A stretch of 52,488 nt of DNA. It comes from a virus. The translations under genes and the position numbers were made by a program. Location of the stretch: positions 1 through 52,488 of the IMG/VR virus record IMGVR_UViG_3300007513_000055, one strand, 5' to 3'. Numbering within the stretch: position 1 is the first letter of the stretch; each line of letters opens with the position of its first letter. The notes beneath the pieces are model-generated. The model was not told the origin of the DNA. It made no database searches and saw nothing but the letters and a program-made list of their open reading frames with translations. Below, piece after piece: positions 4,588 to 49,078 of this stretch.

Positions 4588-5874
4588 ATGGCGATACCAA
4601 CATTAAGACCAAGTAGTCAAGTAAGCAAGTCAATTTTAACGTCTACTGGCTCCCACGCAGACGTGGTCGGGAGCCTACCCTTTGGAATATACACGTCCAA
4701 CGCCTTTGTATCTGGCGCCGTTGATCAGGTGGCATACACCTACAACAAGCTTGGTGGTGAAGTATTAGACATTGAATTAAAGACTTCCCAAGTATACGCT
4801 GCCTACGAAGAGGCAGTTTTAGAATATTCCTATATTGTTAACATCCATCAGGCCAAGAACTCCATTGGTAGTTTGCTTGGAGCGCCCACCGGGTCTTTCG
4901 ATCAGGACGGGCAGTTGGAAGCTGGCCATGCACTTTCTGGCTCAAACTTGGCCCTCAGGTATCCCAAGTTTAAGTTCGGATATGCTCAAAGAGTTTCCGA
5001 TTCCTCAATCGCCCAAGTTGGCCTAGGCCCAAATGACACGCTATATTCGGCTTCTTTTGATATTTCCAGTGGAAATCAGGATTATGATTTGCAGGCGATT
5101 ATCTCAGGAAGCTCCAACACAAACGAGGATAACGGAACGGGCAATACAGTTAAATTTGCTGGCTTGGTCGGAGATAAAAAGATTTTAATTAAAAGAGTTT
5201 ATTACAAAACAGCGCGCGCCATGTGGAGGTTCTTTGGTTATTATGGTGGTATCAACGTTTTAGGGAATCTCACCACTTATGGCCAGTACGCTGATGATTC
5301 TACGTTTCAGGTTGTTCCTGTTTGGCAAAATAAACAACAGGCAATGGCGTACGAGGATGCAATTTATACCAGAATCTCTCATTATTCGTACGAGATTTCA
5401 AACAACAAGATAAGGCTTTACCCACCTCCACCAGAATCAGACCCTGGGTTCGATACGATGTGGATAGACTTTGTAATTCCACAAGATGCATGGGAATCCG
5501 ATTCCGGAGTTGATGATGGAACTGAAGGCATCAACAACATGAATACTCTGCCCTTTGAGAATGTTCCGTATAACAACATTAACAGCATTGGCAAGCAGTG
5601 GATTCGCAGATTCGCCCTCGCCTTGTCAAAGGAGACCTTGGGACAGATCCGCGGCAAGTTTACGACCATACCCATTCCAGGTGAGTCAGTCACTCTGAAT
5701 GCTGACGCACTAATAACCCAGGCAAAGGAAGAGCAAACGGCTCTGAGAGATGAGCTGAAGGCAACGTTGGATGAAATGACCTATAAACAACTCGTGGAAG
5801 ATACTGCGGCAATTTCCGAGAATACGATCATTGTTAACAAAGACATTCCAGTTCTTTCAATATACGCGGGGTAA
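4588..5874 (+). CDS. Neck protein, T4 gp13-like
   Basis: 428 residues. The N-terminal part has the LGGEVLDIELKTSQVYAAYE pattern followed by a helix, as in gp13-type head-completion proteins. The C-terminus, WIRRFALALSKETLGQIRGK followed by IPIPGESVTLNADALITQAK, resembles the gp13 ending WhRryttALhKkqwG...PGGVxLNGxxhhxEA. The phage protein is longer than T4 gp13 (309), mainly through an insert around residues 90-190. It would close the portal vertex and join head to tail. Position between capsid and gp14/15-like genes fits. A CATAGGAG site lies before the ATG, with a slightly long spacer. The family call rests on local pattern similarity. Confidence 0.6.
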   Translation: MAIPTLRPSSQVSKSILTSTGSHADVVGSLPFGIYTSNAFVSGAVDQVAYTYNKLGGEVLDIELKTSQVYAAYEEAVLEYSYIVNIHQAKNSIGSLLGAPTGSFDQDGQLEAGHALSGSNLALRYPKFKFGYAQRVSDSSIAQVGLGPNDTLYSASFDISSGNQDYDLQAIISGSSNTNEDNGTGNTVKFAGLVGDKKILIKRVYYKTARAMWRFFGYYGGINVLGNLTTYGQYADDSTFQVVPVWQNKQQAMAYEDAIYTRISHYSYEISNNKIRLYPPPPESDPGFDTMWIDFVIPQDAWESDSGVDDGTEGINNMNTLPFENVPYNNINSIGKQWIRRFALALSKETLGQIRGKFTTIPIPGESVTLNADALITQAKEEQTALRDELKATLDEMTYKQLVEDTAAISENTIIVNKDIPVLSIYAG

Positions 5875-5880
5875 CAGAGT

Positions 5881-6366
5881 ATGGCAAACGAATGGTCACA
5901 GCCTGGTAACCCCCCTCCTCCTCTTTTTTTAGGAAAGAAGGAAAGAGACCTAGTAAAGCAAGTTAATGACGAACTTATTGAGAGAGTCATCGGGCAGCCC
6001 ATACTTTATTTTCCAATTGACTTATCTCGCACAAACTTCCATTCACTGTATGGGGAGGCAATAAGGAAGACCTTTTTGCCCCCTATCCGTGTATACGCCC
6101 TCGTTGATTGGGAAGGGCAGACAACTCAAACGGGCCGCTATGGCGTTGACAAGAGATCCTCTTTGACTGTGCATTTCCATAAAAGAAGACTGACTGAGGA
6201 TCAAGATCTTTTTGTGAGAGAGGGCGATTTTATTCAGTTCGATAAACTTTACTATGAGATTGCTACCCTCAACGAGCCACGACTCTTGTTTGGGCAAGAG
6301 AACCACAAGCTTGAAATAAGCGCAAAATGCATAAGAGCCAGAGAGGAGGTGTTCAATGCCAAGTAA
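5881..6366 (+). CDS. Neck protein, T4 gp14-like
   Basis: 161 residues, compared with 256 for T4 gp14. It has the pattern expected of gp14-like head-closure proteins: an N-terminal helix, a segment ending in LPPIRVYALVDWEG, then a beta-rich core with GDFIQFDKLYYEI and EPRLLFGQENHKLEI, resembling the gp14 'Y-E-I ... F-Q-L-G' region. It starts seven bases after the gp13-like gene and overlaps the next gene by 11 bases, so the three are probably co-translated. The N-terminus is proline-rich (NPPPPLF). Assignment depends partly on gene order. Confidence 0.55.
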   Translation: MANEWSQPGNPPPPLFLGKKERDLVKQVNDELIERVIGQPILYFPIDLSRTNFHSLYGEAIRKTFLPPIRVYALVDWEGQTTQTGRYGVDKRSSLTVHFHKRRLTEDQDLFVREGDFIQFDKLYYEIATLNEPRLLFGQENHKLEISAKCIRAREEVFNAK

Positions 6367-7294
6367 GAAGCCCCGGTATTTCTCTACGAGGAACAAGACG
6401 CAGAAAGATTATTCTTACACTGATGTGGAAGATACTTCCATTATTAAAGAGGTGATACCATTTCAGGAATCCACCCTAGAAACGATCGATACAGCGATGT
6501 TCCGGTGGATAGACGAGGAGATGAATGTTTCCGCAAGAGGCAACACAGGGTTTAAGAAAGTTCCAGTATTATGGGTTTCTGCCGAAAGAGCTTACCAGAT
6601 TAAGAAAGATAAGGGATTGAGAGACCAGGATGGTACTCTTATTTTCCCCTTGATAACTGTTGAAAGGACGAGTGTTGTAAAGAGTCTTAGTAAGAAAGGG
6701 GCAATCTTCAATTCTTTTGCCGTCAACGATGTTCGCGGCGGATCTATAACAATTGCAAGACAAATTAATCAAGATAAGACTTCTAATTTTGCAAACGCTG
6801 ATGCATACAAGAAGCGGGGCACGCCAGAGAGTCCTGATTCGGGCATCAATCAAAGGAATTTTCCTCGTAAAAATAAGAAAGTTGTTTACGAAACCATTAC
6901 AATTCCGGTCCCGGTTTATTTGGACATCCAATACGACATCTACGTTAGGACTGAATACCAACAGCAAATGAACGAAATTATAGCCCCATTTCTCGTTAAG
7001 ACGGGTAGTCTAAGCTACTTCCACATTTACAACGAAGGTCACGGCTTTGAAGCATTCATACAAGAAGACTATGCTCAGGAAAACAACGTTTCTTCGCTGG
7101 ATGAGGAAGAGAGACAATACCAGACCAAGATAACCATCAAGGTTCTGGGGTATGTTATTGGTGCTGACACCAACCAAGAACAACCAAGGATAGTAAGGCG
7201 CCAAAACGCTGTTGAAGTCAAGATCCCTCGCGAGAGGGTAATCGTTGGTGACATCCCCGATCATATTGATAAGAGGGGGTTTTATCGGGATTAA
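6356..7294 (+). CDS. Tail terminator / sheath-stabilising protein, T4 gp15-like
   Basis: 312 residues. The core resembles gp15: VPVLWVSAERAYQIKKDKGL, then LIFPLITVERTSV, and YDIYVRTEYQQQMNEIIAPF, which parallels the T4 segment with 'IFTRYEDDMFQIVEQILPYF'. gp15 caps the finished tail and forms the surface that binds the neck. The gene lies between the gp14-like gene and the sheath gene, and its start lies inside the upstream gene. A GAGAGGAGG site precedes the ATG. A 75-base AT-rich gap with promoter-like motifs follows. Confidence 0.6.
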   Translation: MPSKKPRYFSTRNKTQKDYSYTDVEDTSIIKEVIPFQESTLETIDTAMFRWIDEEMNVSARGNTGFKKVPVLWVSAERAYQIKKDKGLRDQDGTLIFPLITVERTSVVKSLSKKGAIFNSFAVNDVRGGSITIARQINQDKTSNFANADAYKKRGTPESPDSGINQRNFPRKNKKVVYETITIPVPVYLDIQYDIYVRTEYQQQMNEIIAPFLVKTGSLSYFHIYNEGHGFEAFIQEDYAQENNVSSLDEEERQYQTKITIKVLGYVIGADTNQEQPRIVRRQNAVEVKIPRERVIVGDIPDHIDKRGFYRD

Positions 7295-11012: not shown

Positions 11013-11090
11013 CTAAGGCCGACGCCTAACAAAGTACTTAACATACTTTACTCCTTTTATTATAATTATTAATAACACCCGAGGTTAATA

Positions 11091-38889: not shown

Positions 38890-39882
38890 ATGATGATCGC
38901 AGATGTGGTGGTGGATTTACAGTATGGAGACTGTGGAAAGGGTAAAGTAACAAACCATTTGTGTAAGAACGGGGACTACACACATGTCATAAGGTACAAT
39001 GGTGGTCAAAACGCTGGCCACACTATTTACCATAATGGACAAAAGCTCGTCACTCACCACGTACCTTGCGGAGTTTTGCACGGCGTCAAGTCTATTATTG
39101 GGCCTGGGTGCGTTGTTTATCCTGATCAGTTTTTCGCTGAAATCAAGGAACTCGAAGAAGCAGGAATACCCGCTAGACGATTTGTACGTATTGCACGCAA
39201 TACACATGTCATCACACGAGACCACCTCCGTGAAGATGGAAGGGACACTGCTATCGGAACAACGAAACGAGGAAATGGGCCCGCCTATCGCGATAAGTAC
39301 GCAAGAAAGGGAGTAAGAGCCGAAAACGTTGAAGTACTTCAAGAATTTATTGTCGATCTTTACGAAGAACTTCATGAAAGTGGCGAAGACGTGCGGATAC
39401 TTTTTGAGGGCGCCCAGGGATTTGGACTGGACGTTGATTGGGGTGATTATCCTTTTGTTACTTCATCTCACTGCACGACTGCTTCAGCATTTCTTAACGG
39501 AGTACCCCCACGTTCTTTAAGAAACGTCTATGGCGTAGCGAAGATGTACGAAACCTACGTCGGGGCCAAGAAGTTCCAACCTAAGGACGCTATTTTCAAT
39601 GCTATTCGTGACGCAGGCGAAGAATACGGTGCTACTACCGGTCGTCCAAGGCAATGTAATTGGATGGATTTAAATCTCCTCCAAAAGGCCTCTAACATCA
39701 ATGGAGTAACAAACCTGATCATCAACAAGGTTGATGTCCTGGAAGAGGTTGGTGAATACCGCTTAATCCTAGATCAGCAAATTCTTGATTTTGATAATTC
39801 AAACGAAATGAAGGAATTTATTACTCAAAACATTAATGATGAGGTGGAGGTCGTTTTTAGTTCGAATAAAGAGGCCATCTAG
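38890..39882 (+). CDS. Short (archaeal-type) adenylosuccinate synthetase, PurA/PurZ-like
   Basis: 330 residues, about 100 shorter than bacterial PurA and close to archaeal and phage forms. It has QYGDCGKGKVTNHL (11-24; the P-loop and Asp14, matching catalytic Asp13 of E. coli PurA), YNGGQNAGHTIYHNG, GTTKRGNGPAYRDK, FEGAQGFGLDVDWGDYPFVT, and TGRPRQCNWMD. Cys15 replaces the usual Glu. The enzyme joins aspartate to IMP, or in PurZ to a 2-aminated purine. Retention of the Asp argues against a classical PurZ, where to my knowledge it is replaced. AAGGAGAA precedes the ATG. Confidence 0.78.
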   Translation: MMIADVVVDLQYGDCGKGKVTNHLCKNGDYTHVIRYNGGQNAGHTIYHNGQKLVTHHVPCGVLHGVKSIIGPGCVVYPDQFFAEIKELEEAGIPARRFVRIARNTHVITRDHLREDGRDTAIGTTKRGNGPAYRDKYARKGVRAENVEVLQEFIVDLYEELHESGEDVRILFEGAQGFGLDVDWGDYPFVTSSHCTTASAFLNGVPPRSLRNVYGVAKMYETYVGAKKFQPKDAIFNAIRDAGEEYGATTGRPRQCNWMDLNLLQKASNINGVTNLIINKVDVLEEVGEYRLILDQQILDFDNSNEMKEFITQNINDEVEVVFSSNKEAI

Positions 39883-40636: not shown

Positions 40637-41519
40637 GGGACACGACCATCTAGTAGGCGTCATTCCTGTCGCTGGCTTTGAGGGGGACTTTGGTTTTCCT
40701 TGGCACGACTGCCTACAACCAATAGCGCAGAACTATCTCGCCATTGAGAGGTCTGTGGTGGAGTGTGCCTTTGCGGGAGCGGATACAATTTGGATTGTTT
40801 GTAATGATGACATGCAGCCCCTCATCCGACATCGGATCGGTGACTACGTCCAGGATCCTGTGTGGCTCTATAGGGCATTTGATAGAAACGCTTTTGAGAA
40901 CCAAAGGTCGATCCCCATTTACTATGTCCCCATCCACCCAAAGTATCGTGATAAGATAGATTGTTACGGGTGGAGCGTGATGCAAGGCGCCCTTATGGCG
41001 TGGTGGGTTGCTCATCGTATAAGCAAGTGGGCCGTCCCCAAGAAATACTATGTTTCTTACCCTTATGGCGTGTATGACCCCAAGATTCTGCGCCCCCATC
41101 GCAGGGACATTTCAGGCAAGGACTTATTTTGCTTGTCCTATGAAGGAAAGACTTTTAAGGACGGAGAATACCTTGGTTTTTCTTTCCGTGAGGAAGAATA
41201 CAAAACAATCCTCAGAACAATGAAAAGTGGCACCGGCACGTTTGACCCGGAGACGTATGTTTATAATGAAAATTACGACAAGCTCCCATTAGAAGAAAGA
41301 AATTCAGCCCGAAAATTTTCTCTTGACAAGGTCTATGAATCTGTTATAATGGATGGAGCAAAAGAGGTGGAATTGCCGTGGTATTACCGAATAGACAGTT
41401 GGGACAACTTGACCAACTTTTTAGGCTCGGAAGAGGCGAATTTACTTGCGCGGCCATCTAAAAAGATGCTATACTATAGAGAACTTAACCCAATAGGAAT
41501 CGATGACGAAGAAGAATAA
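40629..41519 (+). CDS. Nucleotidyltransferase-like protein (GT-A-like N-terminus)
   Basis: 296 residues. VGVIPVAGFEGDFGFPWHDC, then LQPIAQNYLAIERSVVECAF and AGADTIWIVCNDDMQPLI, follows the order of nucleotidyltransferase folds (I-P-A-A-G, a pyrophosphorylase-like loop, L-x-P-I, helix, A-G-h-x-x-I-x-I-V). The rest is rich in Tyr and Trp and is not recognised. The usual GxGxR signature is not intact, so activity is uncertain. A consensus promoter lies inside the 3' end, and the HNH gene overlaps by 17 bases. Confidence 0.42.
   Translation: MGKGHDHLVGVIPVAGFEGDFGFPWHDCLQPIAQNYLAIERSVVECAFAGADTIWIVCNDDMQPLIRHRIGDYVQDPVWLYRAFDRNAFENQRSIPIYYVPIHPKYRDKIDCYGWSVMQGALMAWWVAHRISKWAVPKKYYVSYPYGVYDPKILRPHRRDISGKDLFCLSYEGKTFKDGEYLGFSFREEEYKTILRTMKSGTGTFDPETYVYNENYDKLPLEERNSARKFSLDKVYESVIMDGAKEVELPWYYRIDSWDNLTNFLGSEEANLLARPSKKMLYYRELNPIGIDDEEE
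41323..41350 (+). promoter_or_regulatory. Consensus sigma70-like promoter inside the 40629 gene
   Basis: TTGACA (41323-41328), a 16-base spacer and TATAAT (41345-41350): both hexamers are perfect. Transcription would begin near 41357, 146 bases before the HNH gene and about 600 before dnaE. Confidence 0.6.
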
Positions 41520-41952
41520 ATCAAATGCGCGCACATCGTGCTTTGAGTGCGGTTCGCGCGATGACTTGCATGATCATCATGTGGTGCCCCGAAGCTTAGG
41601 AGGTAAAAGGACAGTCTCCCTCTGTCAAGATTGCCATTGGGCGGTACATAGCAAAGGTTCAGGACCGTCGATCAGGAAATTGACAAAGCAGGCCTTGGCG
41701 CAAAAGCAGGCTCGTGGAGAGTGGGTGGGAGGTGCTCCGTTTGGCTACAAGGTTGAAAACGGGAAGCTGGCGAAGGGGGATAAGTGGTTTATGGCTTCAA
41801 CCGTCGTGGATTATCGCAACTCTGGTTGGAAGCTGCGTGAAATCGTGGAGAGAATGGAAACGATGTTTCCCGGAGAGAAGTGGAGCATTACCAAGGTGAG
41901 CCGCATCCTAAGTCGCGAAGGTGTAACTAAGTCGCGAAGGCTTAAAAGGTAA
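41503..41952 (+). CDS. HNH endonuclease fused to a recombinase-like domain
   Basis: 149 residues. The N-terminal 50 residues form an HNH/zinc module: CFECG, LHDHHVVPRSLGG, CQDCHWAVH. The C-terminal 85 residues resemble the DNA-binding 'Recombinase' domain of large serine recombinases: GGAPFGYKVENGKL, STVVDYRNSGWKLREIVERM and WSITKVSRILSREGV. No serine catalytic domain is present. This is probably a homing-type endonuclease. It sits just upstream of the intein-split dnaE. A 14-bp direct repeat lies at its 3' end. The start overlaps the upstream gene and lacks a strong ribosome-binding site. Confidence 0.72.
   Translation: MTKKNKSNARTSCFECGSRDDLHDHHVVPRSLGGKRTVSLCQDCHWAVHSKGSGPSIRKLTKQALAQKQARGEWVGGAPFGYKVENGKLAKGDKWFMASTVVDYRNSGWKLREIVERMETMFPGEKWSITKVSRILSREGVTKSRRLKR
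41908..41940 (+). repeat. 14-bp tandem-spaced direct repeat at the end of the HNH gene
   Basis: CTAAGTCGCGAAGG occurs at 41908-41921 and again, identical, at 41927-41940, with 5 bases between. The coding effect is LSREGVTKSRRLKR at the C-terminus. It may be a target-site or slippage duplication. Confidence 0.75.
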
Positions 41953-41960
41953 GTATTGGA

Positions 41961-44786
41961 ATGAGCAAGAAGAGAATTAAATCACACGTCAAGTTCGTGG
42001 GCCTGCATGCCCACTCGAATGCGAGCATTTTCGACGGCCTCGGTTATCCCGGTGAGCACATGGATTATGCTTGGGAGACCGGTCAGGATGCTTTGGCACT
42101 CACGGACCACGGAAACGCCAACGGGCTAGTCTATCAAGCCCAGCACGCCAAGAAGATGCAGAAGGACGGCAAGGACTTTAAGCCGATCTTCGGTTGCGAA
42201 GCCTACTTCCTTCCCTCCATTTCAAAGTGGAAGCAGGAGGTTGAGGCTCTAAAGGAGAAGCGTAACGAGGAGATCGGGACTTTCGTTGAAGAGGAAACTC
42301 GCGGCGAGAAGAAGGACTTGCTACGCCGTCGTAGCCACTTGATTCTCTTGGCCCAAAACCAAACCGGGCTTAATAATCTTTTTAAGTTGGTTTCGGAAAG
42401 TTTCAAGGAAGGTAACTTCTATCGCTATCCGCGTATGGATTATCGCCTTCTTAAAGAGTATGGTGAAGGCATCATTGCGAGTAGTGCCTGTCTTGGCGGC
42501 GTATACGCTCAAGATTATTGGAGAAATCGCGACGACGGCCCCGATGCCGTTATGCAAGCGATGTATAAGACCACACAGCAAATGCAGGAGGTCTTCGGCG
42601 ATCGTTGGTACGGCGAGATTCAATGGAATCGCATCCCCGAGCAGCACGAACTAAACCAATACATCATTAAGACGTGTCAAAAAATGGGCGTCGATCTCAT
42701 TTCGACGGCCGATAGCCATTTCCCGTCGCAAGACACGTTCAAGGACCGCGAACTTTATCGTCGGCTTGGTTGGATTGGGAAGGCTCGTCGGCCCGAGTGG
42801 CTCGACATTGACCTCCCCGCGTCTCTTGATGACATGGACTACGAACTCTACCCAAAGAATGGCGATGCTATGTGGGAGTCCTACAAGAGGTTCGCCAGCG
42901 AGTTGAATGTCTCTTATAACGATGACTTGGTGATGGATTCTATTGTTCGCACACACCAAATCGCCCACGATCGGGTGGAATCGTTCTTCCCCGACACGGA
43001 GGTTCGCCTTCCTGACTTTGTTGTGCCGGATGGCGTGAGTGCTGACCAAGCGCTTGTCCAGTATTGTGTTGATGGCCTGAAAGCCAATGGCCTGGAAGAC
43101 AACAAGGAGTATGTTGATCGCTTGAAGGGCGAAATCAAGGTAATCCAGAAGCGTGGGTTCTCCAAGTATTTCCTAACAATGAAGGCGATTGCTGATAGGG
43201 CCGTTCAGGACCAACTTGTTGGGGCTGGGCGTGGAAGCGCTGCTGGTTCGCTGATTTCGTATGTCATGGGGATTACGCAAGTTGATCCTTTGAAGTATAA
43301 GCTTCAATTTTCGCGATTCCTGACGGAAGAAGGTGCGGGATACCCGGATATTGACTACGACGTAAGCGACCCGATGTCTTTGAAGGAGGATCTGATTCAG
43401 GAGTGGGGCGACACGACTGTTGTTCCCATTTCTAACTGGAATACTCTTCAACTTCGCAGCCTTATTAAGGACATTTCAAAGTTCTACGACATTCCCTTTA
43501 CGGAGGTCAATTTCGTAACTGGCCGAATGCTCTATGAGGCAACACCGGAGGCCAAGAAGGCACACGGCATCAAGGCTGGTGTCTATACGCCTACTTTTGA
43601 AGAAGTGATGTTGTATAGTAAGTCGCTTCAAGACTTCCTCAGGAAGTATCCGCAAGTCAAGACTCACATTAATGTTCTTTACGGACAGATTCGGTCTTGT
43701 TCTAGGCACGCTGGTGGGGTGGTGATTGGCGAGGATCTTGATACCCGTATGCCGCTCATTAACAGCAAGGGTGTTAGGCAAACTCCTTGGACGGAGGGTC
43801 AAAACGTCAGGCATTTGGAGCCAATGGGCTTTATTAAGTTTGACATTCTTGGCCTCGCATCACTTCGTATGATGGAGGGAGCAATCCGTCACATTTTGAA
43901 GCGCCACGAAGGCATCGCAGATCCCACATTTGACGATGTGCGTGAGTTTTATAATAAGAATCTCCACCCGGAGGTGATTGACTTTAACGATCAAGATGTC
44001 TATGAAAACATCTTTCACGATGGAAGTTGGGCTGGAATCTTTCAATTCACCGAAAGTGGTGCGCAAAAACTATGCCAACGGGTAATGCCGACGAACTTGG
44101 TTGATTTGGCTGCTATCACCTCCATCTACCGACCTGGGCCGTTGAGTGCGGGCGTAGATAAGAGTTATGTGGAAGCCCGTCGCGACCCTGATAGTGTTGA
44201 ATACCCCCATCAAGTCTTTAAGGACATAACCAAAGACACTGCTGGCTTCTTGATCTTCCAAGAGCAGATTGCTGAGTTGGCCCACAAGTTGGGTCGCAAC
44301 ATTTCTTTGGACGAGGGCAACAAACTTCGCAAGTTGCTGACCAAGAAGGGTGTTGCGGAGGTGGAGAAGGAAAAGAATAAGATTAAGAAGAAGTTCATTG
44401 ACGGTTGCGAACAAAAGAAGATTGATTACGCAACATCCCAACAGATTTGGGACCTGTTTGAATACTTCTCTGGCTACGGCTTCAACAAATGTTTGTCTTT
44501 TTCTGAAAAGGTTACTATTTATAATAAAGACAAGGGAAAGGTTGCTGATAAGCAAATTGGCGACGTTGTAGTAGGAGACATTGTCCGCTCCCGAGACGAA
44601 GACACCGGTGAAGACATCTTCATTCCGGTCGAGCAAGTTCATCACAACGGAGTGAAAAAGGTTTTCGAATTTACCCTTGATGATGGGAGAAAAGTAAGAT
44701 GCACGATGGACCACAAGTTCAGGACGAAGTGCGGTCAGATGCTGCCGATCAAGGAGATCTTGGAGAGAGAGTTAGAGATTGTATAG
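41961..44786 (+). CDS. dnaE: DNA polymerase III alpha subunit, N-terminal fragment with N-intein
   Basis: 941 residues. Residues 1-843 are a DnaE: PHP domain (GLHAHSNASIFDGLGYPGEH; ALTDHGNANGL), palm with PDIDYDV and KFDILGLASL carrying the three catalytic Asp, and fingers up to FSGYGFNK. At residue 844 (Cys codon at 44490) the sequence switches to a split intein: CLSFSEKVTIYNKDKG (block A), GDVVVGDIV, and GRKVRCTMDHKFRT (block B with T-x-x-H). The intein piece is 98 residues and ends at TAG. The matching C-part is encoded at 45684. Trans-splicing would restore GYGFNK-SHAISY. The start ATG has a weak ribosome-binding site (GGAATG). Confidence 0.93.
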   Translation: MSKKRIKSHVKFVGLHAHSNASIFDGLGYPGEHMDYAWETGQDALALTDHGNANGLVYQAQHAKKMQKDGKDFKPIFGCEAYFLPSISKWKQEVEALKEKRNEEIGTFVEEETRGEKKDLLRRRSHLILLAQNQTGLNNLFKLVSESFKEGNFYRYPRMDYRLLKEYGEGIIASSACLGGVYAQDYWRNRDDGPDAVMQAMYKTTQQMQEVFGDRWYGEIQWNRIPEQHELNQYIIKTCQKMGVDLISTADSHFPSQDTFKDRELYRRLGWIGKARRPEWLDIDLPASLDDMDYELYPKNGDAMWESYKRFASELNVSYNDDLVMDSIVRTHQIAHDRVESFFPDTEVRLPDFVVPDGVSADQALVQYCVDGLKANGLEDNKEYVDRLKGEIKVIQKRGFSKYFLTMKAIADRAVQDQLVGAGRGSAAGSLISYVMGITQVDPLKYKLQFSRFLTEEGAGYPDIDYDVSDPMSLKEDLIQEWGDTTVVPISNWNTLQLRSLIKDISKFYDIPFTEVNFVTGRMLYEATPEAKKAHGIKAGVYTPTFEEVMLYSKSLQDFLRKYPQVKTHINVLYGQIRSCSRHAGGVVIGEDLDTRMPLINSKGVRQTPWTEGQNVRHLEPMGFIKFDILGLASLRMMEGAIRHILKRHEGIADPTFDDVREFYNKNLHPEVIDFNDQDVYENIFHDGSWAGIFQFTESGAQKLCQRVMPTNLVDLAAITSIYRPGPLSAGVDKSYVEARRDPDSVEYPHQVFKDITKDTAGFLIFQEQIAELAHKLGRNISLDEGNKLRKLLTKKGVAEVEKEKNKIKKKFIDGCEQKKIDYATSQQIWDLFEYFSGYGFNKCLSFSEKVTIYNKDKGKVADKQIGDVVVGDIVRSRDEDTGEDIFIPVEQVHHNGVKKVFEFTLDDGRKVRCTMDHKFRTKCGQMLPIKEILERELEIV
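44490..44783 (+). other. Split intein, N-terminal half
   Basis: 98 residues fused to the end of the DnaE N-part. Cys1 is the predicted nucleophile. Block B (CTMDHKF) contains the Thr and His that activate the N-junction. The length is typical of naturally split N-inteins of about 90-105 residues. There is no internal homing domain. The last 85 or so bases overlap the endonuclease ORF in another frame. Confidence 0.92.
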
Positions 44787-45706
44787 TATGTGGCTATGAA
44801 CCTCCGTCAATGGCCTCTTTTCACCTCCATCGGAGAAACTGCGAGAAATGTTCCTCGAAAGCCTTGGAGATTGGTGATTTTGTAAAGTGCCCCTACTGCG
44901 AGTATGCATCGGCTTCTCTTTACAGTCATTTAAACAAACTTCACCAAATCAACAAACGGAGAGCAAAGGAATTGGGGATTGAGGCGTGCTCTCTGAATTA
45001 CAAGAGGCGACAGCGACGCGCCGTTTCCGCAAGCATTATGGCTTCTCCGGAAGAGCGCCAGCGCCGTGCGCGCTTGCTTGGAGAATTAAACAAGACCAAG
45101 GGATTTAGGGAGAGAGCATCGCGAACAGCGATTAAGACTTCTGCAAGAAAGGACATACAAGAGCAGCGCGCCGAACAACTGGCCAAATGGAGGAGGGAGA
45201 ACCCTGGGAAATTCCGAAAACGATGCACCGAAAGGATGCTGGCGGCGCCAAAACAATGGAAGAAGACAAAGCCGGAAAAGTTCTTGTTAGAATGGCTGGA
45301 AGAAGAGTATTCAGGTGTTTTTGAGTGGGGAAAGATGTTGCGCTCCGTTCGATTTGAAGAGGCCGGCCACAGCGACAGGAAACAAATTGATTTTCGCTCC
45401 AAAGATCGCCTTATCTACATTGAAGTAGATGGACCCTTCCATTTTGAGAACCTGGGAAGAGAAGAAAAAGTAGGCAGCATTAGGATTGAAGAAAGCATTG
45501 CAAGAACGCGCAGTCGCGATAAACTTGTTGAGCAGATTGTTGTTGGTAAAAACAAGTGTTTGATAAGAGTCGGATACGTGTGCTGGGCTAATTCGACTGG
45601 CAGAATTAGGCAGGAAGTTCTTGACAAAATTAGAGAAATAGTAGATAATAAACAAACTGGCGTATTCAAATTGGGAGAATGTTATGGCGAAGATAATTGC
45701 CTTTGA
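44699..45706 (+). CDS. Homing endonuclease, Vsr/EDxHD-like, within the fractured dnaE
   Basis: 335 residues. Two Cys/His groups at the N-terminus (CIVCGYEPP...HLHRRNCEKC and KCPYCEYASASLYSHLNKLH) look like zinc fingers. A long basic helical linker follows (110-190). The C-terminal 140 residues fit a Vsr-like PD-(D/E)xK fold: KPEKFLLEWLEEEY, KQIDFRSKDRLIYIEVDGPF and an HF pair (D231, E242, D244, H248), then SRDKLVEQIVVGKNKCLIRV. A GGGAG site nine bases before ATG 44699 supports this start, although it overlaps the intein half by 88 bases. The stop overlaps the C-part start by 23 bases. It probably spreads the split intein. Confidence 0.85.
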   Translation: MHDGPQVQDEVRSDAADQGDLGERVRDCIVCGYEPPSMASFHLHRRNCEKCSSKALEIGDFVKCPYCEYASASLYSHLNKLHQINKRRAKELGIEACSLNYKRRQRRAVSASIMASPEERQRRARLLGELNKTKGFRERASRTAIKTSARKDIQEQRAEQLAKWRRENPGKFRKRCTERMLAAPKQWKKTKPEKFLLEWLEEEYSGVFEWGKMLRSVRFEEAGHSDRKQIDFRSKDRLIYIEVDGPFHFENLGREEKVGSIRIEESIARTRSRDKLVEQIVVGKNKCLIRVGYVCWANSTGRIRQEVLDKIREIVDNKQTGVFKLGECYGEDNCL

Positions 45707-45794
45707 AGAAGTAGGGGAAATGGATGTTTGCGATCTAGAAGTCGCACACAAAGACCACCAATTTTACTTGGCGAATGGGATGCTGACGAGCAAT
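45684..45794 (+). other. Split intein, C-terminal half
   Basis: 37 residues. MDVCDLEVAHKDHQFYLANG is block F, with the catalytic Asp/His-type core. The terminal Asn37 before Ser38 is standard. The penultimate residue is Ser rather than the usual His. Confidence 0.92.
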
Positions 45795-46676
45795 AGTCAC
45801 GCCATTTCTTATTCAATGCTGTCGTTCCAGTGTGCTTGGTTGTTTAACTCTTATCCTGCTGAATGGATGGCGGCTTTCTTGGATAAGGAGCCTGAGGGAA
45901 GGAAGGAGAAGGCCATTAACTTGGCGCGGAAGTACGGGTTTGAGCTACAACCGCTTGACGTCAATTCCTCAGGAAGAGTTTGGGAGATTGCGTCCGACAA
46001 CAAGACGCTCATTCAGCCTCTCACTTCAATCAAGGGCTTGGGTGATGCCGCAATTGATCAAATCATTGCGAATAGGCCTTTCAACACTGTTGAAGAATTT
46101 ATCTTTAATGAGGGTATTGTTTATAGTAAACTGAATAAGAAGGCTTTGGACGCATTGACGAGAGCAGGCGCCTTGTCCTCTCTCATCGACGAGAGGTTTA
46201 GTGGGGCGAAGCATTTTTGGACTGCCGTAGCGGTTGATCGTCCAAGAAAGGAAAAGAACCTCACTGAAAACATCAAGAAGTATGCGAGCGAAGGAGAGTT
46301 TACAGACGAGGAGAAGATCCAGTATCTTGTTGATTTGACTGGGGTTTTTCCCTTTGAGTTGGTGATGGACGAACACATTCTCCGCAAGTTGGAAGAACAC
46401 ATGGTTCCTCCGCTTGGCGAGTGGGACGATAACTTGGGGGTTGCCTGGTTTATCCCGAGAGAGGTGATTCAGAAGAAGACGAGGAATGGAAAGAACTTCT
46501 TGATTATCAAGACTATTGATTCAACGAGTAGCGCTGAGACTATTAAGTGCTGGAATGCCAATTTGGCGAGAGATAAGATTATTTTGAACCACCCCTACAT
46601 GGCTAAGCTGGATTACAGCGACCAATGGGGATTTAGTACGCGATCTATTAGACACACATTTAGGATGTTGGGATGA
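45684..46676 (+). CDS. dnaE: DNA polymerase III alpha subunit, C-terminal fragment with C-intein
   Basis: 330 residues. Residues 1-37 are the C-intein, ending GMLTSN, and residue 38 (Ser, codon at 45795) begins the C-extein SHAISYSMLSFQCAWLFNSY, which continues the DnaE fingers exactly (E. coli GYGFNKSHSAAYALVSYQ). Then come a helix-hairpin-helix (LTSIKGLGDAAIDQIIANRP) and an OB-type tail. N-part (843) plus C-part (293) gives 1136 residues, a normal DnaE length. GGGAGAATGTT provides a ribosome-binding site within the endonuclease gene. Neither fragment alone should polymerise DNA. Confidence 0.93.
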   Translation: MAKIIAFEEVGEMDVCDLEVAHKDHQFYLANGMLTSNSHAISYSMLSFQCAWLFNSYPAEWMAAFLDKEPEGRKEKAINLARKYGFELQPLDVNSSGRVWEIASDNKTLIQPLTSIKGLGDAAIDQIIANRPFNTVEEFIFNEGIVYSKLNKKALDALTRAGALSSLIDERFSGAKHFWTAVAVDRPRKEKNLTENIKKYASEGEFTDEEKIQYLVDLTGVFPFELVMDEHILRKLEEHMVPPLGEWDDNLGVAWFIPREVIQKKTRNGKNFLIIKTIDSTSSAETIKCWNANLARDKIILNHPYMAKLDYSDQWGFSTRSIRHTFRMLG

Positions 46677-47374
46677 ACAACAAGGTAGTAATCGTAGAAG
46701 GTTTGATTGGGGCCGGCAAGAGTTCTCTTTCGAGGGAACTTGGTGAGGCTCTTGGCGAAAACACCCTCACCCTGATGGAGCCGGATGAGAAGGACAATGC
46801 TAATCCTTACCTCGCCTCCTTCTATCAGAACCAGGAGAGGTGGGCGTTCACAATGCAAGTTCATTTGCTTCAAGCACGCTATATGATGCACTTACAGGCT
46901 CAGTGGTATGCGATGAACAAACAAGGTCACGCCGTTCTTGACCGAAGTTACTTTGGCGATACCTCGTTTGCGCGCCTACAAGTCAAGACTGGTGCGATGA
47001 GTGAGAATGAGTTTGAGACTTACCGTAGTATCTATCACGCTATGACTGCGAGCGTCCTGCTACCTAGCGTATGTGTGCGTCTCGTGGTGAGCCCAGAGGT
47101 CGCAGCGGAGAGGATCCGTCGCAGGATGGAGTCGCAGACCGGCCGCAAGTGTGAGAATGTTATTGACATCAATTACTTGCGAGAGTTAGATCGAGAAATT
47201 AATCACATGGTTGGTGTGCTAACTGGACAAGGGGTACACACCATTCACGTTCCGTGGGATGCTGACCGAGGAACGACCGAGGCAAGAAAGGACGCAGTAA
47301 ATGAGATTGCTGCGCAGATTGTAGAAACACAACAAAAAGATTTGTTTTTGGACCTTCATAGGAGAACATTGTAA
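46673..47374 (+). CDS. Deoxynucleoside kinase
   Basis: 233 residues. P-loop GLIGAGKSS (near 10-18), LDRSYFGDTSFARLQ (the D-R-S substrate and magnesium motif near 80), and a lid region ERIRRRMESQTGRKCEN identify the dCK/dGK/TK2-type kinases. It phosphorylates deoxynucleosides with ATP to salvage dNMPs from degraded host DNA. It overlaps the dnaE C-part by four bases (ATGA) and ends overlapping dut by one base. Which nucleoside it prefers is not clear. Confidence 0.82.
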   Translation: MNNKVVIVEGLIGAGKSSLSRELGEALGENTLTLMEPDEKDNANPYLASFYQNQERWAFTMQVHLLQARYMMHLQAQWYAMNKQGHAVLDRSYFGDTSFARLQVKTGAMSENEFETYRSIYHAMTASVLLPSVCVRLVVSPEVAAERIRRRMESQTGRKCENVIDINYLRELDREINHMVGVLTGQGVHTIHVPWDADRGTTEARKDAVNEIAAQIVETQQKDLFLDLHRRTL

Positions 47375-47823
47375 TGAGAGTTTATAGGATTAGAGAAAAC
47401 GCAAGACTACCACACCGAGCCCACCCGACTGATGCGGGGATGGACTTGTTTTACTGTCCAGATGGGAAGGAGACGGATCGTGGTATCACCATCCACCCCG
47501 GTGAGACGAGGTTAGTCCCGACAGGAATTAAAGTGGAGGTGCCAGACAACCACATGCTAGAGGTCAAGAACAAGTCAGGCATTGCCTTTAGGCAGCAGCT
47601 TGTGGTTGGTGCATGCGTGGTCGATGCCGGGTATGACGGAGAAGTGTTCGTCAATTTGCACAATATTGGAACGACCTGCCGCCGAGTCGAGATAAACCAG
47701 AAAGTCGCCCAGGCTGTTTTAGTTCCGATCATCACCTGCGAGATCGAAGAGGTGACGGAGGATTGTTTGAACCAGAAGACTGAAAGAGGGGACGGCGGCT
47801 TTGGGTCAACGGGATTACGATGA
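47374..47823 (+). CDS. dut: dUTPase, trimeric
   Basis: 149 residues, a typical length. All five motifs are present: HPTDAGMDLF (1), NKSGIAFRQQ (2), GACVVDAGYDGEVFVNLHN (3), INQKVAQAVLVP (4) and ERGDGGFGSTG (5). It converts dUTP to dUMP, both avoiding uracil in DNA and feeding ThyX. The gene overlaps both neighbours by one to four bases. The start is ATG with GGAGAAC upstream. Confidence 0.95.
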   Translation: MRVYRIRENARLPHRAHPTDAGMDLFYCPDGKETDRGITIHPGETRLVPTGIKVEVPDNHMLEVKNKSGIAFRQQLVVGACVVDAGYDGEVFVNLHNIGTTCRRVEINQKVAQAVLVPIITCEIEEVTEDCLNQKTERGDGGFGSTGLR

Positions 47824-48056
47824 ACTTAGGAAGAAGGATAAGACGCCGGAAGGCTAGAGAGCAGGAGAAGGACGCTATTAAAAGAATGTCTAAACAGTTG
47901 GAACACATGCAGAACATGCCCTCCAATTGTACGGTTTGTGACGCTCCCTTTGAGCGAACTCGCGAGACAGTTAATAGTTGGAGAGTGGAGTGTGATTTTG
48001 AGACTGGAAACATTCGCCTCCTATGCCCCGAACACGGCCCGGAGGAACAACAATGA
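47820..48056 (+). CDS. Small Cys-rich hypothetical protein
   Basis: 78 residues. A basic N-terminus (NLGRRIRRRKAREQEKDAIK) is followed by a possible zinc site made of CTVC, a later Cys (WRVECDF) and LLCPEHGPEE. It could bind nucleic acid. No family is recognised. It overlaps dut by four bases and the IMPDH-like gene by four, so it is in the same translationally coupled string. Confidence 0.6.
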   Translation: MNLGRRIRRRKAREQEKDAIKRMSKQLEHMQNMPSNCTVCDAPFERTRETVNSWRVECDFETGNIRLLCPEHGPEEQQ

Positions 48057-49078
48057 CCATACCAGCACTCACTTATGACGATGTTTTGCTCGTCCCAAAG
48101 TACAGCGAGATTAAGAGTCGCACAGAGATAAACATTGGGAATGATTTGGACGACTTTATTCGTCTGAGCCTGCCTATTATCGCTAGCCCGATGGATACGG
48201 TATGTGGTTCCAGAATGGCGACTGCTATGTCGGATGCTGGTGGCCTAGGTATCATACACCGATACAATACCGTACAGGAACAGGCAGAGTTAGTCAAGAA
48301 TGCTAGGGAAAATGCTACTGCCCCTTTCCACATTGGGGCAGCGGTCGGTGTTACAGGGGATTACATTCTACGAGCCAAGGCCTTGGTGGAGGCAGGAGCC
48401 GAAGTCATTTGTATTGATGTAGCGCACGGCCATCACGTGATGGTGCGTGACGCTATTGAGTCCTTGAAGAAAGAGTTTCAAGGAAACGTACATCTGATGG
48501 CCGGCAACGTGGCCACGGTAGATGCTTATCGGGCTCTTAGTGAGTGGGGTGCCGATAGTGTTCGTGTCGGAATCGGTGGAGGTAGCATCTGTTCTACGCG
48601 CCTCCAAACAGGGCACGGCGTTCCCAACATCACAGCCATTGCTGAGTGTGCCGCACTGGAATACGATGTCCCCATCATAGCCGATGGAGGGATCAAGAAC
48701 TCAGGCGACATTGTTAAGGCCTTGGCTGCTGGTGCCGACTTTGCTATGGTTGGTTCGCTGCTGGCTGGTACAGAGGAGGCGCCTGGCGAGTATGTTAGGG
48801 TGAATGGGCACCAACAAAAGGTGTATCGTGGGATGGCTTCCTCTGAGGCTCAGACTGAATGGCGGGGAAGTTGTACTTTTGCTGAGGGTGTCTCAACAAC
48901 AGTCCCGTGCGTAGGTGCGGCTTCTGGTATTTTGGAGGGTCTCCGAGCCGGCATTCTGTCGGGCTTCTCTTACAGTGGGGCGGCTACAATTCAGCAATTG
49001 TGGATGAAGTCGGAACTGATCCGTCAGACGGCCGCTGGCCAGTTTGAGAGTTCAACGCACATCTTGGATAGACGGTGA
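48053..49078 (+). CDS. IMP dehydrogenase / GMP reductase-like enzyme
   Basis: 341 residues from ATG 48053, with GGAGGAA upstream. [20 protein letters not shown] opens the barrel. [37 protein letters not shown] and the active-site loop [19 protein letters not shown] (catalytic Cys) follow, then [20 protein letters not shown] binding phosphate. The CBS pair found in most IMPDH is absent, as in GMP reductase and some short IMPDH. It would convert IMP to XMP (or GMP to IMP). With the PurA-like enzyme, both branches from IMP are phage-encoded. No intein is present. Confidence 0.85.

Follow-up and report, generated by a model that had tools for sequence, protein, structure and literature searches.

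Comparison with known fractured genes and split inteins

Fractured genes, as reportedly described by Dassa in 2009, are DNA-synthesis genes, mainly of phages, in which a split intein divides the coding sequence and the gap holds a free-standing endonuclease gene, often Vsr-like, and gp41-1 and NrdJ-1 are fractured, phage-type metagenomic split inteins. The fractured genes of Dassa 2009 are cited in PMC7090010, PMC12350094, PMC10448857 and PMC11766414, the last of which names gp41-1 and NrdJ-1 among metagenomic split inteins. Natural split inteins are also known in phage PolB polymerases, and three-segment splicing has been engineered (PMC12707363). Here we analyzed IMGVR_UViG_3300007513_000055, a virus record with matches to major head, tail sheath and tape measure (52,488 nt; "the window" denotes this whole stretch), whose dnaE gene, encoding the alpha subunit of DNA polymerase III (Pol III alpha), is interrupted. 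We conclude that this dnaE is very probably a fractured gene, in which a mobile split intein is combined with a free-standing homing endonuclease and DnaE is restored by protein trans-splicing. An initial annotation had proposed a split intein with a free-standing endonuclease, a reading now supported by an exact empty site, the catalytic residues, matches in the PDB, a Vsr-like fold, purifying selection and recurrence at the same site.

Like fractured genes, the window's locus combines a conserved enzyme site interrupted by both intein halves, a free-standing endonuclease between them and intact relatives with an empty site. Here, possibly unlike in the eight enzyme types reportedly covered by Dassa 2009, the interrupted gene encodes Pol III alpha, and one insertion site has a family that can be traced through distant loci. 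With the cyanobacterial DnaE split inteins (Ssp, Npu) it shares the gene, the intein split point and a C-intein of similar length (37 vs. 36 residues), but the endonuclease is still in place and the halves are adjacent in the window. The insertion site within DnaE also differs: cyanobacterial insertion is presumably at |CFNK(SH), which would place the window's site, GFNK|SHA, four residues downstream. The window's C-extein begins SHA and that of NpuDnaE does not, its native +2 and +3 residues being Phe and Asn (PMC11766414). The cyanobacterial DnaE split-intein genes lie far apart in the genome (PMC7765530).

Anatomy of the interrupted gene

The dnaE N-part (41961-44786, + strand) encodes Pol III alpha residues 1-843 (41961-44489) followed by a 98-residue N-intein (44490-44783) and ends at a TAG stop (44784-44786), and the C-part (45684-46676, + strand) opens with a 37-residue C-intein (45684-45794) that leads into the C-terminal 293 residues of Pol III alpha (45795-46673), with Ser as the +1 residue. 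The extein lengths of 843 and 293 residues are those given by the initial annotation, and the insert between them measures 1305 nt (44490-45794). The residues expected of a split intein are all present: Cys1, which follows the junction GYGFNK|C1; a block B T-x-x-H (CTMDH); a terminal Asn; and a +1 Ser (LTSN|S). The N-part had been described as ending in a complete N-intein (Cys844, T-x-x-H, TAG) and the C-part as opening with a complete C-intein ending SN, and both descriptions hold in coordinates and residues. The 335-residue endonuclease open reading frame (ORF; 44699-45706, + strand) does lie between the halves as annotated, but is not fully separate from them: it starts within the N-intein gene in another frame, giving an 88-nt overlap, and its stop overlaps the start of the C-part by 23 nt.

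The N-part matches the Pfam models DNA_pol3_alpha, finger and PHP (the alpha NTPase, finger and PHP regions of Pol III alpha) as well as TIGR00594 (E 1e-142), and the C-part matches the HHH region of Pol III alpha (Pfam HHH_6, E 2e-13). In NCBIfam, PRK09532 aligns to N-part residues 11-940 and PRK07373 to C-part residues 1-171, models that we take to be the two halves of the cyanobacterial split DnaE.

An exact empty site and selection on both exteins

Among the relatives, taken as the best 80 of 581 loci found with the C-part, dnaE is uninterrupted at the window's site in 77, split in the same way in two (L001 and L002), and in one (L064) the sequence ends before the site. Beyond the near-identical L001 and L002, the closest relative is L003, which provides an exact empty site, reading through GFNK|SHA without the 1305-nt insert; its dnaE is approximately 79.5% identical to the window's in DNA, and its exteins are 89-90% identical. 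L001 and L002 are 99.85% (16 differences over 10.9 kb) and 99.89% (14 differences over 12.8 kb) identical to the window in DNA, both with zero differences within 44490-45794, and because they carry the same arrangement we reject an assembly artefact.

Comparing the window with L003 by the method of Nei and Gojobori (NG86), we obtained nonsynonymous (dN) and synonymous (dS) divergences of 0.070 and 2.54 in the N-extein and of 0.078 and 2.52 in the C-extein, for a dN/dS of approximately 0.03 in both. With codon changes polarised by L006, which left 220 N-extein and 77 C-extein codons not polarisable, the window branch carries synonymous and nonsynonymous changes in ratios of 109:16 (N-extein) and 32:4 (C-extein), similar to the uninterrupted L003 branch (80:10 and 32:4). 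Judged from these codon changes, both exteins are under strong purifying selection. A broken dnaE, its C-part a pseudogene and its work done by another polymerase, might be suspected in a gene that two endonuclease genes have invaded (the second is described below); yet both parts are free of stops and frameshifts, dN/dS is approximately 0.03 in each, and the same arrangement occurs in three contigs, the window's included. The initial annotation had named a pseudogene C-part, revealed by uninterrupted relatives, as what would count against its reading, and the comparison does not bear this out. We consider this alternative very unlikely.

Intein halves related to DnaE split inteins

A profile comparison of the two halves with split inteins, suggested by the initial annotation, placed DnaE split inteins first in the PDB. 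The window's N-intein alone matches them at E 6e-15, and profiles of the family described below do so at E 3e-14 (N-intein) and 3e-7 (C-intein); matches of 6e-15 (N) and 3e-7 (C) exclude a chance likeness. With the family profiles, DnaE-intein chains, Nostoc and Synechocystis included, take the first 14 places for the N-intein and the first 8 for the C-intein. Both gp41-1 (E 5e-5) and DnaX (E 0.0015) rank behind the DnaE inteins (3e-14), and NrdJ-1 is not among the 60 listed of the 65 PDB matches to the N-intein family profile. TIGR01445 matches the N-intein at E 8.5e-5, its 23.5 bits falling slightly below the cut-off of 24.5. As the comparison covered the PDB and NCBIfam only, kinship to the cyanobacterial DnaE inteins is not exclusive; contiguous DnaE inteins akin to those of cyanobacteria have moreover been described (PMC6390638), and the likeness therefore falls short of direct descent.

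A 1305-nt insert with an endonuclease ORF is also typical of group I introns, and one could imagine a self-splicing RNA intron or frames joined by frameshifting. At both ends of the insert, however, lie conserved intein halves that are read in the frame of the adjoining extein, and we consider this reading extremely improbable. An Rfam search of positions 41000-47500 returned no intron up to E 1 and a single chance-level match, located on the opposite strand (E 0.27; 20.1 bits, threshold 86); on this search a group I or group II intron was ruled out.

The endonuclease and its overlapping start

Pfam returned no significant match for the endonuclease ORF. The ORF comprises a zinc-finger-like N-terminal part (best PDB match Ros, E 1e-4), a helical middle and a Vsr-like (EDxHD) catalytic domain at residues ~187-335. 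In a structure model built with 15 aligned relatives (mean predicted local distance difference test score, pLDDT, 76.5; predicted template modelling score, pTM, 0.44), this C-terminal domain aligns with Vsr (1cw0) at Z 13.0 (130 residues, 2.9 A) and with the homing endonuclease I-Bth0305I (3r3p) at Z 10.1 (97 residues, 18% identity); Foldseek alone gave E 0.018 for the Vsr match. Seven residues, Glu193, Asp231, Glu242, Asp244, His248, Asp274 and Arg290, are invariant across the alignment and all present in the window. On the model, then, the endonuclease has the Vsr/I-Bth0305I fold, sharing its catalytic fold with I-Bth0305I and other EDxHD homing endonucleases but unlike I-Bth0305I in its zinc-finger-like N-part and in a start codon that lies inside an intein gene.

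That internal start recurs. In all 12 loci checked (the window, L083, L086, L087, L093, L094, L095, L096, L099, L100, L103 and L111, out of 15 split loci with a related endonuclease), the endonuclease begins at the same ATG, made by the block B codons, and GG(A/G)GA, which comes from Gly-Glu codons, stands at the same place before it; in the window this Shine-Dalgarno-like site is gggaga at 44685-44690 (+ strand), inside the N-intein gene. The overlap with the N-part spans 88-145 nt in these 12 loci, and the endonuclease frame is free of stops there. When we shuffled the intein codons synonymously, the overlap frame stayed open in 1.7-100% of draws per locus, with a product of 3e-11 that is not a probability because the loci are related. 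Four loci (L097, L107, L108 and L109) start differently and fell outside the shared-ATG test. At the other end, endonuclease and C-part share 4-23 nt in 10 of the 15 split loci that have a related endonuclease, and the window is one of the ten.

The C-part of the window has a Shine-Dalgarno-like gggaga of its own (45673-45678, + strand), and directly upstream lies a sigma-70-like promoter, TTGACA-17-GATAAT (45621-45649, + strand), that matches 11 of 12 consensus positions. Sites of at least 11/12 number six on the + strand of the window and zero on the - strand, against a mean of 0.6 in 20 simulated strands. The six strong + strand sites (11-12 of 12) lie at 11038, 19362, 19622, 28825, 41323 and 45621. 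A promoter before the C-part as a trait common to the family was rejected, as it was not seen in relatives.

A split-intein family at one dnaE site

To the relatives we added loci from profile scans of viral contigs, using N-intein and endonuclease alignments, and from one scan of genome contigs. Both intein halves are split at Y(G/A)FN(K/R/S/H/E/A)|SH in 16 distinct loci besides the window, 14 of them viral (L083, L086, L087, L093, L094, L095, L096, L097, L098, L099, L100, L103, L107 and L108) and two on contigs of metagenome-assembled genomes (MAGs), namely L111 (Paracaedibacteraceae) and L112 (Thioploca). A relative of the window's endonuclease is found in 14 of the 16, broken across two frames in L094; L098 instead holds a different 661-residue ORF without a Pfam match, and L112 retains pieces of an L098-type ORF and keeps the split. 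Two further loci are incomplete or undivided: L113, on an archaeal MAG contig, has the N-half only, and the dnaE intein of L109 is contiguous. L104 duplicates L103 (100% identity over 9135 nt) and was therefore omitted from the tables and trees, and L110, with a weak nuclease match only and no intein, was dropped. The first intein residue is Thr rather than Cys or Ser in L086 (5992) and L109 (5640).

Across 18 other loci, L109 and L113 included, the N-intein is 41-59% identical to the window's (18 loci), compared with 28-47% in the last 300 N-extein residues (17 loci), and the C-intein is 43-70% identical (17 loci), compared with 31-39% in the adjoining 120 extein residues (17 loci). These values bear on the possibility that the DnaE parts act as a non-covalent two-subunit polymerase with the intein halves as non-splicing relics. 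As a precedent for such an outcome, there is a reductase that an endonuclease gene divides into two peptides and that still works (PMC10448857). In the window, however, the intein catalytic residues are all present, and relics are disfavoured because the C-intein is better conserved than its adjoining extein across distant loci; we regard this alternative as very unlikely.

Extein and intein trees place the window differently. In the extein tree it groups with the intein-free L003, L006 and L010 (ultrafast bootstrap 99-100), and the intein tree joins it to L083 and L107 (91/95, on a branch without a star). In the approximately unbiased test (p-AU), the extein data reject the groups window+L083 (p-AU 3.6e-48) and window+L083+L107 (p-AU 2.5e-4), both of which were chosen after the intein tree was seen. 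L109 and L111 form long branches and L099 is less than half filled; L113, without a C-half, is outside both trees, and L112, with too little N-extein, is outside the extein tree. Because the window's DnaE sits among intein-free relatives and the extein data reject the intein-tree groups, the trees point firmly to a gain of the insert within the window's own intein-free lineage. For the +1 Ser, the window and L083 (the intein's nearest kin) use AGT, and L003 and L006 use TCG, which is weak evidence because AGY also occurs in 9 of the 78 other loci among the relatives found with the C-part.

Named phage records gave no DNA match to 44490-46676 and no protein relative of the endonuclease at E 0.01, and no isolated phage with the window's dnaE split was found among them. 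The N-intein matches 86 such records, all below 60% identity and none over more than 80% of its length, and DnaE itself matches 1359. In two of the latter, the isolated phages phiT1 (L119) and Jayan (L120), a small ORF separates two dnaE coding regions; read by eye, these breaks show no intein halves, and they are perhaps other inserts.

Proposed mechanism and points against it

On this evidence, a mobile split intein with a Vsr-like homing endonuclease would have entered the Pol III alpha gene at FNK|SHA. Translation of the region's three overlapping ORFs would give DnaE-N joined to the N-intein, the endonuclease (begun at an ATG within the N-intein gene) and the C-intein joined to DnaE-C, the last perhaps also served by the second promoter-like site. 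The intein halves would then associate and splice DnaE in trans, using Cys1, the block B T-x-x-H, the terminal Asn and the +1 Ser. The endonuclease, for its part, is predicted to cut intein-free dnaE alleles, whereupon recombination could copy in the whole 1305-nt module.

Several observations weigh against trans-splicing by a mobile split intein as the explanation. The selection test also spans whatever part of the window branch preceded the split, and synonymous sites are close to saturation (dS ~2.5). DNA identity to L003 does not rise beside the insertion as a conversion tract would make it do. The Pfam intein model remains below threshold on the N-part (16.8 bits against a cut-off of 35.8). 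Among the 15 split loci whose endonuclease is related, three (L097, L107 and L108) have another endonuclease start and five (L083, L087, L094, L095 and L100) have no overlap of endonuclease and C-part, and the strong promoter-like site before the C-part was not seen in relatives (best 7-9 of 12). Finally, the intein tree is without any starred branch, and the intein data do not clearly reject extein-like groups (p-AU 0.11 for window+L111 and 0.051 for L083+L086+L093+L099).

Divergent arrangements in related loci

Other loci carry further variations on the theme. In L109 (4236-8294), a Vsr-like endonuclease of 315 codons (5932-6876) is overprinted in another frame of the contiguous intein, whose own frame is open through the whole endonuclease gene. 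None of 20000 synonymous shuffles stays open in this way (mean 17.8 stops), and both frames therefore appear to be kept. The intein, modelled on an alignment with shortened N-inteins, resembles a Hint domain (best match 4kl5, NpuDnaE; Z 13.3, 117 aligned, 3.1 A), at a mean pLDDT of 57.4 with the linker mostly below 50. As its endonuclease sits in a different relative frame, L109 is not simply the ancestor of the window's arrangement. The hidden HNH element of ShiLan, an out-of-frame endonuclease in an open phage gene without a splicing domain (PMC11855218), is a precedent for an endonuclease in another frame, from which L109 differs in modelling with a Hint domain.

In L099 (606-8290), dnaE is clearly broken twice and probably a third time; every break shows intein parts and encloses a nuclease-like ORF, so that the gene seems to lie in three, probably four, pieces. 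Only the break at the window's site holds a match to the window's endonuclease; the two other gap ORFs are nuclease-like by eye, with Pfam giving zinc fingers and DUF7487. One piece (5623-6351) carries intein parts at both ends, opening with a C-intein and closing with an N-intein, and the first break looks atypical, with a C-intein of ~20 residues. A second site, RS|CSRHAGG, is split in the window's close relative L004 (2105-6915), together with a different nuclease-like ORF that Pfam matches weakly to MTES_1575 and DUF559, and in L116/L117 (4246-8222; one virus, 99.95% identical), with ~104 nt between the open frames and no endonuclease. L108 (1746-5738) combines the split intein with a contiguous intein-like insert in dnaE (GEGRG|C...HN|SVGGS).

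It is possible, though we hold it only tentatively and think it rather doubtful, that a mobile family of already split inteins uses phage dnaE as its hub and homes at GFN(K/R)|SH from one distant phage to another, with the endonuclease start and ribosome site within the N-intein gene. Its stages would comprise the empty site, an endonuclease overprinted on a contiguous intein (L109), the fractured gene with its endonuclease (the window), decay of the endonuclease by breakage (L094) or by deletion of most of it while the split persists (L112), and accumulation of breaks until the polymerase is in three or four pieces and would need natural trans-splicing in tandem (L099). On this view the DnaE split inteins of cyanobacteria would be a sister or a descendant that lacks the endonuclease.

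A literature search, which covered few subscription journals, found no paper describing a phage dnaE that is fractured, a dnaE that naturally comes in three pieces or an endonuclease overprinted on an intein. The fractured-gene kind itself is already known, and the dnaE-site family, its cyanobacterial likeness, L099 and L109 go beyond the published work found. The window would offer a replicative polymerase of a phage that should need trans-splicing to be active, and through the one-site family it becomes possible to test how split inteins home and where the cyanobacterial DnaE split inteins come from. The family is a candidate relative or source for the latter, which are widely used in protein engineering, and would supply new split inteins with Cys1 or Ser1.

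Other features of the window

A second insertion lies at the 5' end of dnaE, where an HNH endonuclease ORF of 149 residues (41503-41952, + strand) replaces with its first codons the dnaE start seen in L003, dnaE restarting at 41961. This ORF is absent from L003 and L004 and is a second mobile element. Elsewhere, positions 38890-39882 and 48023-49078 hold a PurZ-like gene (PHROG 1211, "2-aminooxy adenylosuccinate synthetase"; Pfam Adenylsucc_synt) and an IMP dehydrogenase, a pair which suggests that the phage may carry 2-aminoadenine DNA, here beside a DnaE-type polymerase. The stretch at 30801-31496 matches DUF3293 and, below threshold, the phage S-adenosylmethionine lyase family.

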